The position numbers and the translations under genes are program-made. This document shows, in pieces, positions 16,059-21,120 of a DNA stretch of 23,517 nt; position 1 is the stretch's first letter, and every line of letters starts with the position of its first letter. The stretch is from positions 1 to 23,517 of IMG/VR virus record IMGVR_UViG_3300009085_000087, one strand, 5' to 3'. Origin of the DNA: a virus. Under the pieces are notes generated by a model. The model saw only the letters and a program-made list of their open reading frames with translations. It was not told the origin of the DNA and did no database searches.

Positions 16059-16554
16059 GCAAGCCTCCATCCACAACGATCTGGTGCACTATCACACGGT
16101 CACGCTTCTCGCGCAGGTTCAGGGCGCATACCAATTCGTACGCCAGCCCCGAGCGCTCATAGAACCGCTCGTTCGCGGTGAGTAGCACGTTCAGCATGCC
16201 CTTGCGCAGCGCGACGAACACGTCGTTCTCCGGGTACCCTTCAGGGTGCTCGGGTGTGCTGCTCCGGGTGTACCCTTGCTCGATGAGTAGCTCCACAGAG
16301 TACTCAAGCGTGAACACGTTGCAGTACACGACGAAGTCGATGTCGCGCCCTGCTCCGAATGCATGCCAGCTCCCTATCGGCTGTACCGCTGCGGGCATCC
16401 TTGCGCTATACAGATCGGCGTCGAGGCCGTAGTTCCCGGTCTCGCTTATCACGTCTAGGTCCACTATGTGCCCATGCGTGAGTGCGTCCTTCAGGCTGAG
16501 GCCCAAGTCCTGCAGGCAGCGCCTAGCTGCGTCAAGCGTTGGTGTCTCGCTCAT
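16051..16554 (-). CDS. Nucleotidyltransferase-like protein
   Basis: A 167-residue protein. The stretch GSWHAFGAGRDIDFVVYC (61-78) resembles the GS...DxD metal site of the Pol beta-like nucleotidyltransferase fold (D71, D73). A later strand, GMLNVLLT (119-126), would normally carry a third acidic residue, but here it is Asn122. The C-terminal helix with REKRDRVIVHQIVVDGG resembles phage proteins of this class. It may transfer a nucleotide to a protein, RNA or small molecule, or be a non-catalytic relative. The start has an excellent ribosome binding site (AAAGGAG) and overlaps the exonuclease gene by 23 bases. Confidence 0.6.
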   Translation of the reverse strand: MSETPTLDAARRCLQDLGLSLKDALTHGHIVDLDVISETGNYGLDADLYSARMPAAVQPIGSWHAFGAGRDIDFVVYCNVFTLEYSVELLIEQGYTRSSTPEHPEGYPENDVFVALRKGMLNVLLTANERFYERSGLAYELVCALNLREKRDRVIVHQIVVDGGLHG

Positions 16555-17461
16555 CTTGTTCTCCTTTCGGTGTCACCCAATCGCGCCGCACGCAGTCCTG
16601 CACGAAGTCTTGGTTCGCGGGGCTGAGGTTCAGCGTCCGCATGTACTCGTACACGTTGTCGTTGTGCCAGCGGGTGAGCCATAACAGCCACCCCTCTGCG
16701 ATTGCGTTCTGGTTGATCTTGCGGTACGCATCGAGCACGATGTTCGCCGCGTCGTGCACGTTCGTGCACTCCCCGAGCGCAGCAACTGCGCCAGCGGGGC
16801 CGCAGAGCTTGCCATCGAACTTCAGTATGCCGCCGATGTTGTCTGCGGTGTCGCCGGCCAGCATCTGCGCCCAGAAGAACATCGGGCCTTGCCCGGTCAT
16901 CTTGACGTTCCCTGCTGGTGTGAGCTTCAGGCTTACCCACCCTTCGGGTTGCCCGGGCATAACCTCGCCGCGTTCCTGTTCGTAGTACAGGTGCGGGGTC
17001 ATGCGGAGGTCCTTGTCCTCGGAGGTGATAACGCCGTGCGGCCCTAGCCGGTACGCGTCCTGCATCATGCCATCATCTGCTTCGAGTTCCCTGTGCAGGA
17101 ACACGCAGTACTCCTCGAGCCACGTGCTGTTATCAGCCACGAGTTCGCGGAGCGGCTCAAGCAGAGCCGGCTTCGACTTCCCTTTGCGCTGCCCTTGGTA
17201 CGGCTTCGCCGCCTTCACACGGAAGCGTCCGTGCTTGTCAGATGACTTCGCAGTGAGGTGGATGCGGATGTCCGTGGCTTTCGTCAGGAACATACGCTTC
17301 AGCATCTCGCTCTGGAAGTGCCTGAGCGCGGTGTCGAGCCGCTTTGCAGTGGCCGACGCCACGTAGCACGGGCCATCCCCATCGACTATCAGGGTACGGC
17401 CCGGCACGGCGTTGTCGAACTGATCGGGCAGGGCGCTAGTATCAACGCCCTGAATGATCAT
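16532..17461 (-). CDS. 5'-3' exonuclease / flap nuclease (T7 gp6-like)
   Basis: A 309-residue protein (T7 gp6 has 300). The acidic metal-binding residues of the FEN/5' nuclease family are present: VDGDG (D27, D29), ELEADD (E127, D129, D130), SEDKDLRM (D149, D151) and AGDTADNIGG (D204, D207). The basic segment KPYQGQRKGKSKP (86-98) matches the family helical arch. It removes RNA primers and degrades host DNA. The ATG at 17461 forms an ATGA overlap with the zero-frame stop of the SSB-like gene. The 20 bases before it contain no purine-rich ribosome binding site, so initiation most likely depends on ribosomes ending at that stop. Confidence 0.92.
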   Translation of the reverse strand: MIIQGVDTSALPDQFDNAVPGRTLIVDGDGPCYVASATAKRLDTALRHFQSEMLKRMFLTKATDIRIHLTAKSSDKHGRFRVKAAKPYQGQRKGKSKPALLEPLRELVADNSTWLEEYCVFLHRELEADDGMMQDAYRLGPHGVITSEDKDLRMTPHLYYEQERGEVMPGQPEGWVSLKLTPAGNVKMTGQGPMFFWAQMLAGDTADNIGGILKFDGKLCGPAGAVAALGECTNVHDAANIVLDAYRKINQNAIAEGWLLWLTRWHNDNVYEYMRTLNLSPANQDFVQDCVRRDWVTPKGEQDERDTNA

Positions 17462-18417
17462 ACAGGCAGGACAGGCTCAGAAGGGGATGTCGTCATCGAA
17501 GGCACAACCGTCGTGGGCGCAACCATCGGGGCTGGGACAGTAGGCACAGCGGGTGCGGCCATAAAAGGGGTGGCCACCTGCGGGGCTACCGCAGCAGGCA
17601 TCGCAGGAACGCCTACAGCAGGCGCAACGGGTGCGGCTGGGGCGATGGTACCGGCGACGGCTGCGGGAGCCACCACGGGCGCTACAGCGGGCGCAGCGGG
17701 CAGTGCTGCGGGTGCCGGCAGCGAGGTCACACCGTTCGACAGCAGGAGCTGCAGCGGCGAGCCTTGGAAGTCCAGAGCTGCGAGGATGGTCTCCTGCACA
17801 CGGTTCTTGCTCACGCCGTCGTCGTACTTCCCTTCGACGTACAGAGCATCCCAAGCCTCCTTGGTGGGGCGCGCCCACAGGAACATGCGGTACAGCTCGT
17901 CAGCGGCTTCCGGGATCGGGTACGGCTGGCGGGTCACGGGGTCGAGCGGCGGTAGGAATCCGTCGAGGTCGATGCGTGACACGATGCTGGTGTCGGTCTT
18001 GGACTTCTGCACGTGCTTGATCTTGACCAAGAACGTCTCACCCATGAGCTGAGCGTAGCTCTTGGCGGTGCCCTTCCAGTTCAGCGCCTTGAACATCTTG
18101 AATGCGCGGGACTTCTCATTGCGGGACAGCGCCGTGTTGTACGTGCGGACGATCACCGGGGTGCCGTCGTCGTTCTGGTAGCCTTGGCCCCAGAGTGCGA
18201 AGCCCACGGCGAACTCGAGTGCCGGGTCCTTAGCCTTGCCACCGAACTCCTGCGGCTGGTTGCCGAATTCGATGTACTCGATCAGGCGTCCAAATGCGTA
18301 GCCCTCGGGGAGGAGGCGTGCACCGCCGCCGCCCTTCTGGGCTTCGTTCATGTCGATGCCGGATTCGGCGGCGTCTTGGTTGGCTTGCTCGAGGAACTGC
18401 TGAAGTTTTGCGGACAT
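17458..18417 (-). CDS. SSB-like protein, zero-frame product
   Basis: The 319-residue zero-frame protein has an N-terminal helix (1-25), a Gly run (29-32), and an OB-like beta-rich core (about 33-228) with ARLLPEGYAFGRLIEYIE and GFLPPLDPVTRQPYPIPE. From 233 on it is a Pro/Ala/Val linker. This anatomy (binding core then disordered linker) is that of ssDNA-binding proteins, and the gene lies between DNA polymerase and 5' exonuclease. The zero-frame end (SPSEPVLPV) has no acidic tip. The ATG at 18417 has AAGGAG upstream and starts 17 bases after the micropeptide stop. The stop overlaps the exonuclease ATG. The SSB assignment is inferred from context, architecture and the alternative tail. Confidence 0.75.
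   Translation of the reverse strand: MSAKLQQFLEQANQDAAESGIDMNEAQKGGGGARLLPEGYAFGRLIEYIEFGNQPQEFGGKAKDPALEFAVGFALWGQGYQNDDGTPVIVRTYNTALSRNEKSRAFKMFKALNWKGTAKSYAQLMGETFLVKIKHVQKSKTDTSIVSRIDLDGFLPPLDPVTRQPYPIPEAADELYRMFLWARPTKEAWDALYVEGKYDDGVSKNRVQETILAALDFQGSPLQLLLSNGVTSLPAPAALPAAPAVAPVVAPAAVAGTIAPAAPVAPAVGVPAMPAAVAPQVATPFMAAPAVPTVPAPMVAPTTVVPSMTTSPSEPVLPV
17477..18417 (-). CDS. SSB-like protein, -1 frameshift product ending FDDDIPF
   Basis: If ribosomes slip -1 at the heptamer 17569-17563, residues 1-285 of the zero-frame protein are joined to 28 residues read from 17563 to 17480, with TGA at 17479-17477 (313 aa in all). The new tail is YGRTRCAYCPSPDGC... and ends FDDDIPF. The last seven residues equal the tip of E. 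coli SSB (MDFDDDIPF), which is the docking site for many bacterial replication and repair enzymes. Join: 18417-17563 then 17563-17477. Seen: the frame, the tail and the slippery site. Inferred: that slippage happens. Alternative: a missing base in the C4T4 run of this sequence. Confidence 0.68.
17563..17569 (-). promoter_or_regulatory. Candidate -1 frameshift slippery heptamer C CCT TTT
   Basis: Read on the minus strand the zero-frame codons are ACC CCT TTT ATG. The heptamer C-CCT-TTT obeys the X XXY YYZ rule in the correct phase: after slipping, both tRNAs re-pair as CCC and TTT. Six bases downstream lies a small possible hairpin, GCAC-CCGCT-GTGC, and CGCACC could instead pair with GGTTGCG further on with one bulge. 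No strong pseudoknot is evident by eye. No other in-phase heptamer of this type was found by eye between here and the start of the shared open stretch near 17878. Confidence 0.68.
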
Positions 18418-18434: not shown

Positions 18435-18518
18435 TCAGATGGAAGAAACGGCGGCGAACACAACGGAGGCGAACACCGCCCCCAAGTACACCAGTAGGAT
18501 TACTGCGAGTGCTTTCAT
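18435..18518 (-). CDS. 27-aa hydrophobic micropeptide
   Basis: A short open frame fills the gap between DNA polymerase and the SSB-like gene: MKALAVILLVYLGAVFAS followed by VVFAAVSSI. It has one Lys at the start and then an unbroken hydrophobic stretch long enough for one membrane span. Its ATG forms an ATGA overlap with the polymerase stop, the same coupling used by proven neighbours, and GAAGG lies 5 bases upstream. It ends 17 bases before the SSB-like ATG. The tight fit supports a real gene. Function is unknown. It could act in the membrane, or serve to carry ribosomes on to the SSB-like gene. Confidence 0.6.
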   Translation of the reverse strand: MKALAVILLVYLGAVFASVVFAAVSSI

Positions 18519-20953
18519 AGTACCTTCGCTTTCTCGTACATTGATGGCCCTGCCTCAACCTCGCAGGGGAACGGTACACCCAGATCGTATCCGAATTGCT
18601 TGAAGAACTCGGGCAACGATTCCATGATGTGCTTCACTGCTGCGGCTACCTCGGGCAGCACAGACAAGCAGCAGTCTAAGTACACGGCGTCGTGCACTTG
18701 GTTAATGATGAACACGCGGCCACCGAAGAAGCCACGCGAGACGAGCCAGCGCATGATCTGGCCGGCGATGCCCTGCACGAAGAACCCGGACTCCCCTTGA
18801 ATCGGATAGTTCCGCATCTGCGTGGGCTTGAACTCCATGAGTTCGACGCGCCGCCCCTCGATGTACTTCGCCTTCGGGTACTCGCGGAACTCGAACGTCG
18901 TGCCAGCAGGGCTGGTCCATGTGCCGCGCCCGTACACCCGCCAGCTACCGTTGTCGGCCTGCTCGCGGTGTATCGTCTTGGTGCGCTCAACCTGAGCGAA
19001 CACCTCGCGCTCATACCACGACTCGACCTCCGGGAACAGCGCCTTCTCTGCGTCGATGAATGCCTGCGCATCCTCGACAGTGCAGCCGGTGCTGAACGCG
19101 ATGCCCATTGCAGTTGCGCCGTACTGGTACGCGAACGCCTTCGGCTTGATGTCCGTCCGCATCGTCTTGTACCGCTTGTGCTCGGGGTGCGAGTCGTCCT
19201 TGCACTTCTTCAGGACATCCTCGTACGGCTCACCGAGTTGCTGCGACAGCCGCATGCAGTGCATGTCGATGTTGTCCAGCAGGGCACGCACTAGGTTCTT
19301 GTCCTTCGAGAACGCTGCGAGGGTGACGACCTCAAGTGCGGAGTAGTCCGCCTCGATGACAGCCCCGACGCGCTCTCCGCGTTGGATCAGCAGCATGCAC
19401 TCGTCGTACACGTCCTCCGGGATCACGCCGTGCATGAACGCCCACGTCAGCCACTTCGGATTATCGAAGCGCGAGGTGAACATCTTCTTCACCTCCGACG
19501 TGTCGCCACGCGGTGTGTTCTGCATGTTCGGGCGGTTGCTCGATAGTCGCGTGGTCACGGTGCTCGTCGTGTTCAGCACGTGGTAGATGATGTCTTGTTC
19601 GGTGAGGTACTGCAGCATGCCCGACTGCTTGAGCACGTTCCCCTCAGCGTCGCACTTGTCTCGCAGGTAGTACGTCCCGAGGTCCTTGTCGATCTTGGCG
19701 AACTTCAGGAGGTTGCCCAGCATGGTGCGGGTGCCCTCGTCGAACTCCTGTCGCTTCGACAGCATCTCGATGGCGTCGGAGCCAGTGCTGTACACCGGGG
19801 TGTCGTCTGCGAGCTTACGCTTCCCAGCGAATTCGTCCTTGAACGACTTCTGCACGTCCTTCGGCAGCAGGTTCAGGTCAACCACACCAGTCAGCATGAG
19901 CTGCCGGTCGTACCACTTCTGCTTCGGGGTGGCTGAGGGACGCTTCACGAGCTTCGCCTCGCCCTTGTTCTTGCCGGCCTTGTACCGGGTTGGTGTGCCG
20001 TACGCCGTGACGCATGCACTGAATCTGTCGGAGCCGTCGATGTTCTCGGTGGCGATGTGTGTGACTGTGCCGTCGTCGGCGGTGAACTCGTAGCACTCGA
20101 TGGTCTCGAACTTCGGCGTGACGCCATCATCCTCGAACCACGTGTCGCGCATGCGGTACTTCACAGGGCCGCCGAACAGCCACGCACTCATGTGGAAGTC
20201 GCTGGTGTCCTTGAATTCAACATGCTCGGGGATGTGCGTACGGTACGCACGAAATCCATCTGCGAGTGCAGCGAGGCGCTCCTCCTGCTCGGCCTTCTGG
20301 GTGAACGCAATGTCACGATCCACGTGCAGGCCGGCGTCCATTGCGAAGCAGTTGAAGATCAGGCCGTCCATCCGCAGCATCGCCATGTCCCACATGCCGC
20401 GCTGTTGGAGCTGAGCCACTTGGCCGTAGAACACGCGGCGAGTGTTGTCGATGTCGCCGCCCGGGCCGATGAGGTACTGGTCGTACAGCAGGTCCTTGTC
20501 GATCTGGCTCGTGAGGTACCCCTGCTGCCACAGCAGCTTCACGCCATCCACCTTGTGCGTGCCGCCGTACTTCGTGGCGGTCTCGTCAAGGCTCGGGTAC
20601 GTCTCTTGCTGGTTCGTCAGGAGGTACTCGGCGTACGCGGTGCAGAAGATGCGCCCGCCCCGTGCCAAGAACGCTTCGATCTGGGCGCGCTGCTTCACGA
20701 GGAACCAGTCCATCTCGAACGCGGCGTTGTGCGCCACGAGGAGCCACACGTCGTCCGGGATGTTCAGCCAGCTCGCGCCGTTCGCCTCATCCTTGTTATT
20801 AAAATACGTGCCGGTGATAACGCCGTCGAACGGCTGTTCATCAATGGCCCGGCCTTCCGCCACGATGTAGTTGTCTGGGTGCCTCGGGGAGGCCAGCGCA
20901 CCGCAGTGCGTGTGGTTCTCCGTCTCGAGGTCGATGATCATAATGCGGGGCAT
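18515..20953 (-). CDS. Family A DNA polymerase with 3'-5' exonuclease domain
   Basis: The 812-residue protein (numbering from ATG 20953) has an N-terminal proofreading domain: MIIDLETENHTH (D8, E10) and LVAHNAAFEMDWF (D82). The polymerase domain has motif A DYSALE (D536, E541), motif B R599-x3-K603-x3-F607-x3-Y611-G and motif C QVHDAVY (H754, D755). The F607 position is Phe as in E. coli Pol I F762, where T7 has Tyr526, so discrimination against dideoxynucleotides is expected. It is about 100 residues longer than T7 gp5. ATG 20953 is preferred over GTG 20959 because GAGGAG ends 5 bases before the ATG but abuts the GTG. The stop shares ATGA with the micropeptide. Confidence 0.96.
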   Translation of the reverse strand: MPRIMIIDLETENHTHCGALASPRHPDNYIVAEGRAIDEQPFDGVITGTYFNNKDEANGASWLNIPDDVWLLVAHNAAFEMDWFLVKQRAQIEAFLARGGRIFCTAYAEYLLTNQQETYPSLDETATKYGGTHKVDGVKLLWQQGYLTSQIDKDLLYDQYLIGPGGDIDNTRRVFYGQVAQLQQRGMWDMAMLRMDGLIFNCFAMDAGLHVDRDIAFTQKAEQEERLAALADGFRAYRTHIPEHVEFKDTSDFHMSAWLFGGPVKYRMRDTWFEDDGVTPKFETIECYEFTADDGTVTHIATENIDGSDRFSACVTAYGTPTRYKAGKNKGEAKLVKRPSATPKQKWYDRQLMLTGVVDLNLLPKDVQKSFKDEFAGKRKLADDTPVYSTGSDAIEMLSKRQEFDEGTRTMLGNLLKFAKIDKDLGTYYLRDKCDAEGNVLKQSGMLQYLTEQDIIYHVLNTTSTVTTRLSSNRPNMQNTPRGDTSEVKKMFTSRFDNPKWLTWAFMHGVIPEDVYDECMLLIQRGERVGAVIEADYSALEVVTLAAFSKDKNLVRALLDNIDMHCMRLSQQLGEPYEDVLKKCKDDSHPEHKRYKTMRTDIKPKAFAYQYGATAMGIAFSTGCTVEDAQAFIDAEKALFPEVESWYEREVFAQVERTKTIHREQADNGSWRVYGRGTWTSPAGTTFEFREYPKAKYIEGRRVELMEFKPTQMRNYPIQGESGFFVQGIAGQIMRWLVSRGFFGGRVFIINQVHDAVYLDCCLSVLPEVAAAVKHIMESLPEFFKQFGYDLGVPFPCEVEAGPSMYEKAKVL

Positions 20954-20955
20954 AC

Positions 20956-21120
20956 TCACTCCTCTGGGAACTCCCTGTGTAATGCGAGCGCAAGGTGCGC
21001 AATCTCAGCCGTGATCTGGCGGCAGCGCCTGCGCTGCGCTGGTGTCTGCGCCATGTGTGCGACGATGCCCTCAAGCTCGCGCTGTAGCTGCGCGATTCGT
21101 ACTGTGCGGTACGCGATCAT
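20956..21120 (-). CDS. 54-aa helical protein before DNA polymerase
   Basis: A short gene reading MIAYRTVRIAQLQREL...HLALALHREFPEE. It is almost entirely helix-forming and rich in Arg, Gln, Ala and Glu, so a small helical bundle or coiled coil is likely. The start ATG shares ATGA with the stop of the HNH gene and has AGGAGA six bases upstream. The stop lies 2 bases before the polymerase ATG, and the last codons GAG GAG serve as the polymerase ribosome binding site. Family not recognised. A replication accessory role is possible from position only. Confidence 0.75.
   Translation of the reverse strand: MIAYRTVRIAQLQRELEGIVAHMAQTPAQRRRCRQITAEIAHLALALHREFPEE

Follow-up and report, generated by a model that had tools for sequence, protein, structure and literature searches.

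Does a single phage gene yield two C-termini through a programmed -1 frameshift, one of them ending in the docking tip of bacterial single-stranded DNA-binding protein (SSB)? The question is raised by an SSB-like gene in the stretch of 23,517 nucleotides analysed here (the window). The window covers part of a phage genome, in which the genes follow a T7/phiKMV-type order: DNA polymerase of family A, SSB-like gene, exonuclease and T7-type RNA polymerase. The features considered below are as follows.

18515-20959, minus strand: family A DNA polymerase gene (PF00476), upstream of the SSB-like gene; it fixes the gene order
17458-18417, minus strand: SSB-like gene in the zero frame, 319 aa, between the DNA polymerase and exonuclease genes; phrog_862, a family with no assigned function
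18417, minus strand: ATG start of the SSB-like gene, with AAGGAGATC 5′ of it
17737-18417, minus strand: conserved core, residues 1-227, predicted OB fold (AlphaFold2 and VIA-align)
17458-17736, minus strand: zero-frame tail, rich in Pro, Ala and Val, ending in SPSEPVLPV without an acidic tip
17575-17579, minus strand: AGGTG, 6-10 nt 5′ of the heptamer, a possible Shine-Dalgarno-like stimulator
17563-17569, minus strand: in-phase slippery heptamer C CCT TTT (context ACC CCT TTT ATG)
17477-17563, minus strand: -1 frame tail after the shift, YGRTRCAYCPSPDGCAHDGCAFDDDIPF, followed by the stop TGA (17479-17477)
17504-17548, minus strand: cysteine cluster CAYCPSPDGCAHDGC in the -1 tail, a possible metal site
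17477-17500, minus strand: SSB-type tip FDDDIPF and stop, in the -1 frame only
16532-17461, minus strand: exonuclease gene (phrog_107), downstream; its own ATG overlaps the zero-frame stop of the SSB-like gene

A preliminary description of this DNA had reported that the -1 frame stops right after FDDDIPF, 84 nt from the heptamer, with the shift at residue 285, and that the zero frame ends in a Pro/Ala tail lacking an acidic tip. Rereading confirmed the coordinates, the heptamer, both peptides, the distance and the residue. The last seven residues of the -1 frame are identical to FDDDIPF of E. coli SSB. As the frameshifted product would have 313 aa and the zero-frame product has 319 aa, the two forms would differ in the nature of the C-terminus and not in size. 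Among the 7,504 codons of the window, C CCT TTT is the sole in-phase X XXY YYZ heptamer with TTT, a codon that accounts for 6% of the Phe codons there. When synonymous codons were redrawn with the zero-frame protein fixed, 0.03-0.09% of the draws gave a D-(x)-I-P-F/Y-stop tip in the -1 frame, which supports the earlier statement that these features are unlikely to have met by accident. The same C4T4 run and tail occur in a near-twin contig (L001) that differs by 4 substitutions and 0 indels in 5,957 nt, which argues against an indel error in a single contig.

Recurrence of the -1 tail among relatives

Relatives of the SSB-like gene are present in 944 phage records, and the phrog_862 profile matches the window protein over residues 6-268 (E = 3.2e-77). 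Among isolates, the closest genomes are those of Sphaerotilus phage R1, Macromonas phage BK-30P and Aeromonas phage PS; scans of GTDB and IMG/VR returned no further close relatives. In L006/L047/L082 (IMGVR 3300001592) a contig frameshift breaks the core, so that the alignment splits and a straight translation contains six stops.

The comparison of homologues had been set as a test beforehand, and the heptamer and the -1 tip were found to recur together at 33-66% core identity. In detail, the -1 frame ends as CCPRCWGDDIPF in L022 (66% core identity; tip WGDDIPF), as CIACDASGDIPY in L067 (59%; tip GDIPY) and as CAACDPIPF in three Achromobacter isolates (33%). In L053 (about 47-50%) it passes the zero-frame stop and ends as CDDCADDIPF; no relatives of this tail alone were found in phages. 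The zero frame of L067 is altered (TSRIS vs TSPSS) and its -1 end is still DIP-aromatic-stop. With each zero-frame protein fixed, a tip arises per lineage in about 0.01-0.16% of codon draws, and tips were observed in 5 of 44 lineages against 0.0025 expected. Across all six frames of the 469 kb of DNA retrieved, the tip was confined to the end of the SSB-like gene (frame -1 or 0), apart from one match that closes a neighbouring gene of phage MR16. The closest relatives with complete tails (L004, L006 and L008) have -1 ends of CPF or CAF and no acidic run. Even the near clade does not share the feature throughout, as L007 and L051 have no -1 evidence, and most phrog_862 members checked have no -1 tail. 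Unlike the window, members phi NF-1 and L078, both from the outgroup, carry a DxIPF-type tip in the zero frame (DDIDDIIPF and GEDDIPF, respectively).

Many relatives' tails hold more than the docking tip to which the preliminary description had, correctly, drawn attention: they carry a spaced motif, C-x-C-G-x(0-10)-[WFY]-x(2-8)-C-x2-C (Cys4), and some of them have no tip. The motif was defined post hoc on four lineages (Achromobacter, L067, L022 and L004/L006) and later widened to Tyr, which added L009, L014, L025 and L076. These four lineages keep Cys4 with a basic or neutral C-terminal end. Axy23 and Axy09 have a second copy of the motif, and L053 also carries it. All 13 matches in SSB-like gene tails are in frame -1, whereas only one was found elsewhere in 193 kb of six-frame sequence. 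That match lies in gp18 of Pseudomonas phage phi-2 (L096, 596-844), a separate gene adjoining the SSB-like gene, with the form C-x-C-G..F..C-x2-C. By codon redraw 0.15 Cys4 lineages were expected and 9 of 44 were observed. The cluster of the window, CAYCPSPDGCAHDGC, does not match the strict motif. Cysteine counts alone were dropped as evidence: Ala/Pro/Val codons are read as Cys in frame -1, where a high content is therefore expected, and the counts showed no excess over codon redraw; only the spaced motif exceeds expectation. From its spacing, one might guess that Cys4 is a metal site.

Of the 10 lineages with -1 evidence, 9 have an in-phase heptamer whose A-site codon is AAA or TTT, versus 4 of the 34 without such evidence (p = 9e-6). 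The spellings in the former are C CCT TTT, C CCT TTG, G GGA AAC, C CCA AAG and C CCA AAC. A published E. coli survey included C_CC.U_UU.U and C_CC.U_UU.G among its chosen shift-prone motifs, and described G_GG.A_AA.C as a weak shifter that is nevertheless used by insertion sequences (PMC4066793). Stops in the -1 frame lie 3-24 nt 5′ of the heptamer in Axy23, Axy09, L053 and L004, and just 9 nt of this frame are open 5′ of the heptamer in Axy23 and Axy09. In the window, L067, L022, L004, L006 and the three Axy phages, the -1 frame contains no ATG, GTG or TTG 3′ of the heptamer; L053 has GTG codons there. Given the late opening or the absence of start codons, the tails of Axy23, Axy09, L067, L022, L004 and L006 cannot come from an independent ATG, GTG or TTG start, and most -1 tails need a frameshift to be translated. 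Two Achromobacter phages have GAGGTG at the distance from the heptamer at which the window has AGGTG. A uniform RNA stimulator was not found; the predicted downstream structures were no better than shuffles (window z = -0.26), L053 excepted (z = -2.7).

Transcriptional slippage requires longer runs than C4T4, C4T3 or GGGAAAC, and was rejected on this ground. Two genomes have a pair of heptamers. In Achromobacter phage Axy23 (L015), C CCT TTG occurs at about 2691 and 2835; the -1 tail of the first site combines Cys4 with the basic end ARRARRR, and that of the second has the acidic tip. In L053, C CCA AAC is followed by C CCT TTG, each with its own -1 tail, the first of which carries Cys4 and the second the acidic tip.

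The pattern of substitutions was compared inside and outside the overlap of the two frames; all of these tests involve few sites. Between the Achromobacter isolates Axy23 and Axy21, the best pair, differences per zero-frame codon position were [0,4,1] in the overlap and [23,20,91] outside it (p = 0.006), a shift from codon position 3 to position 2. Elsewhere in the same pair they were [13,9,46] in the core, [9,10,38] in the upstream tail and [1,1,7] past the -1 stop, and the zero frame is thus constrained 5′ of the heptamer. L006 and L008 gave [2,4,3] inside and [4,1,15] outside (p = 0.017), and the Axy23/Axy09 and L004/L006 tests were not significant. Constraint on the -1 frame had been proposed as a check, and the base changes between Axy23 and Axy21 follow that frame. 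These comparisons indicate selection on the -1 frame over the overlap, and the view that a conserved -1 overlap ends this phage gene is well supported.

The core and its family

The core was modelled with AlphaFold2 on 32 relatives (mean pLDDT 90.2). The best VIA-align match of the model was PrgE, an SSB (Z 7.4, 112 residues, rmsd 4.7; the tool advises caution for Z below 8), followed by PrgE again (Z 6.7) and then Deinococcus SSB, RPA, Pf3 SSB and PriB. Nearly all of the structural neighbours are OB folds, and most of them bind single strands. With Z-scores under the safe level of the tool, this match is support and not proof. Foldseek against the PDB gave no significant match for the same model. 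Pfam assigned no family to the window protein, PF00436 (SSB) included, nor did NCBIfam and PDB-sequence searches give a named family; members of the relatives' alignment had no SSB family match. An NCBIfam profile for a phage replication initiation protein (NGO0469 family) matched weakly, below its cut-off. One GenBank relative is annotated as SSB. Other phrog_862 members bear the labels "large tegument protein", "Fe-S oxidoreductase" or "tail collar", each of which is probably wrong.

The position beside replication genes and the in-frame acidic IPF tips of phi NF-1 and L078 agree with an SSB role. The earlier label of SSB is based on the predicted OB fold, the SSB-like tip and the gene position, and not on sequence similarity to a named SSB family. 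We regard the phrog_862 core as a putative OB-fold protein that may bind single-stranded DNA. E. coli SSB consists of an OB-fold core, a flexible Pro-rich linker and a tip. The window protein would resemble this layout in its core (predicted OB fold), linker and tip, and differs in that its core is not PF00436.

Alternative explanations

A GC-rich Pro/Ala tail might leave the -1 frame open in any case, with the tip an accident. Indeed, 58-91% of resampled tails would be expected to keep the -1 frame open, and a Cys-rich reading falls out of Ala/Pro/Val codons; however, the excess of tip and Cys4 lineages over codon redraw, their association with the heptamer, the codon-position shift in the overlap and the location of the L053 tip outside the zero frame together make such an accident very improbable. 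We give as little credence to the idea that the tail is truly in frame, owing either to an indel error in C4T4 or to a single real frame in the phage. Homopolymer errors are common, and in the record of phage R1 the -1 tail comes into frame through a change of length within a C-rich stretch. Against this, the near-twin contig shares the C4T4 run, relatives that include the isolate genomes Axy23, Axy21 and Axy09 have C4T3G or GGGAAAC sites, two Axy isolates keep an in-frame -1 stop 9 nt 5′ of the heptamer, and the codon-position pattern points to a constrained zero frame upstream of it. A missing base, named in the preliminary description as what would overturn its reading, is therefore unlikely, as both the twin and differently spelt heptamers (C CCT TTG, G GGA AAC) keep the arrangement. 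The tip and Cys4 module could instead be a separate small protein made from an internal start without any frameshift, as the GTG codons of L053 and the small genes beside the SSB-like gene in phi-2 and MR16, which bear Cys4 or a DDDIPF tip, might suggest. We consider this improbable, given the lack of start codons beyond the heptamers of the window, L067, L022, L004, L006 and the three Axy phages, the late opening of the -1 frame in Axy23 and Axy09, and the lack of a Shine-Dalgarno sequence upstream of the L053 GTG on inspection.

A further alternative accepts the frameshift and denies docking. Other phage SSBs have acidic tails that are believed to mimic DNA on the OB fold, and the tip could do so within the molecule, or the Cys4 domain could be the functional part. 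The lineages whose Cys4 tails end in basic or neutral residues (L009, L025, L076 and L014) fit this explanation, as do the acidic zero-frame ends without IPF in other family members. The recurrence of a DDIPF/DIPF ending, terminal Pro-aromatic included, speaks against it, and the pockets of E. coli SSB partners bind that terminal Pro-aromatic. On balance we hold a non-docking tip to be unlikely, if worth serious attention.

Two proposed C-terminal forms and comparable systems

The most economical reading is a programmed -1 frameshift through which the product gains a Cys-rich module and, in five lineages including that of the window, a docking tip. Most ribosomes would end in the zero frame and produce a form with an uncharged Pro/Ala tail. 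After residue 285, some would slip by -1 on C CCU UUU, and the last 28 residues of their product would comprise the cysteine cluster and FDDDIPF. Judging by its identity with the E. coli sequence, this tip may serve as a docking site for proteins, from host or phage, with affinity for the C-terminus of bacterial SSB. In bacteria, SSB tips form a hub on which many enzymes of repair and replication converge. As the tip is reached only by the shift, not every subunit of the window phage would carry it, and some subunits on a DNA-coated filament would recruit partners. We consider it very likely that one gene gives tailed and untailed SSB-like forms in this way, with a tip that may dock SSB-tip partners; slippage itself, its rate, metal binding and the identity of the partners are proposed from the DNA and its translations. 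More tentatively, two successive -1 sites might give up to three forms (plain Pro/Ala; Cys4 with a basic or neutral end; cysteines with the docking tip), with the ratio of docking to non-docking forms set by the phage.

E. coli dnaX (tau/gamma) is likewise a replication gene with two C-terminal forms made by a -1 shift at an X XXY YYZ site (PMC5009743), but it encodes a different protein and its shift truncates, whereas that of the SSB-like gene would add a conserved, functional-looking tail. Low-level -1 shifts also give alternative C-termini in lambda G-T and in capsid gene 10 of T3/T7 (PMC5009743; PMC3080317). Those proteins are structural, whereas the window gene probably encodes a DNA-binding replication protein that would gain a Cys4 motif and tip. 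In the open-access literature covered here, we found no report of a frameshifted SSB or of a frameshift in the phrog_862 family. If true, a share of tipped subunits set by slippage would offer a natural test of how many tips are needed per DNA-coated filament. Moreover, the result suggests a function for a family that hundreds of phage genomes list as "hypothetical", "tegument" or "Fe-S oxidoreductase", and points to a conserved -1 coding region that gene finders have missed.

Several related sequences in the family differ in arrangement. In Sphaerotilus phage R1 (L008, 2650-2918), in which the length change in the C-rich stretch brings the -1 tail into frame, the annotated protein ends in DACRADSGCAF, and the record may hold either an error or a real switch. 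In Pseudomonas phage MR16 (L097, 540-794), the SSB-like gene is directly preceded by a small gene with the own-frame end PPTKDDDIPF, that is, a docking tip on a separate protein. Among the tails of L012/L013, L030-L033, L096 and L097, those of Pseudomonas-phage relatives have an internal zero-frame DVPFEGG, DAPFEGG or DVPFDGG, and those of Aeromonas-phage relatives DDVPPF. These motifs are possibly the same docking element placed inside the tail.
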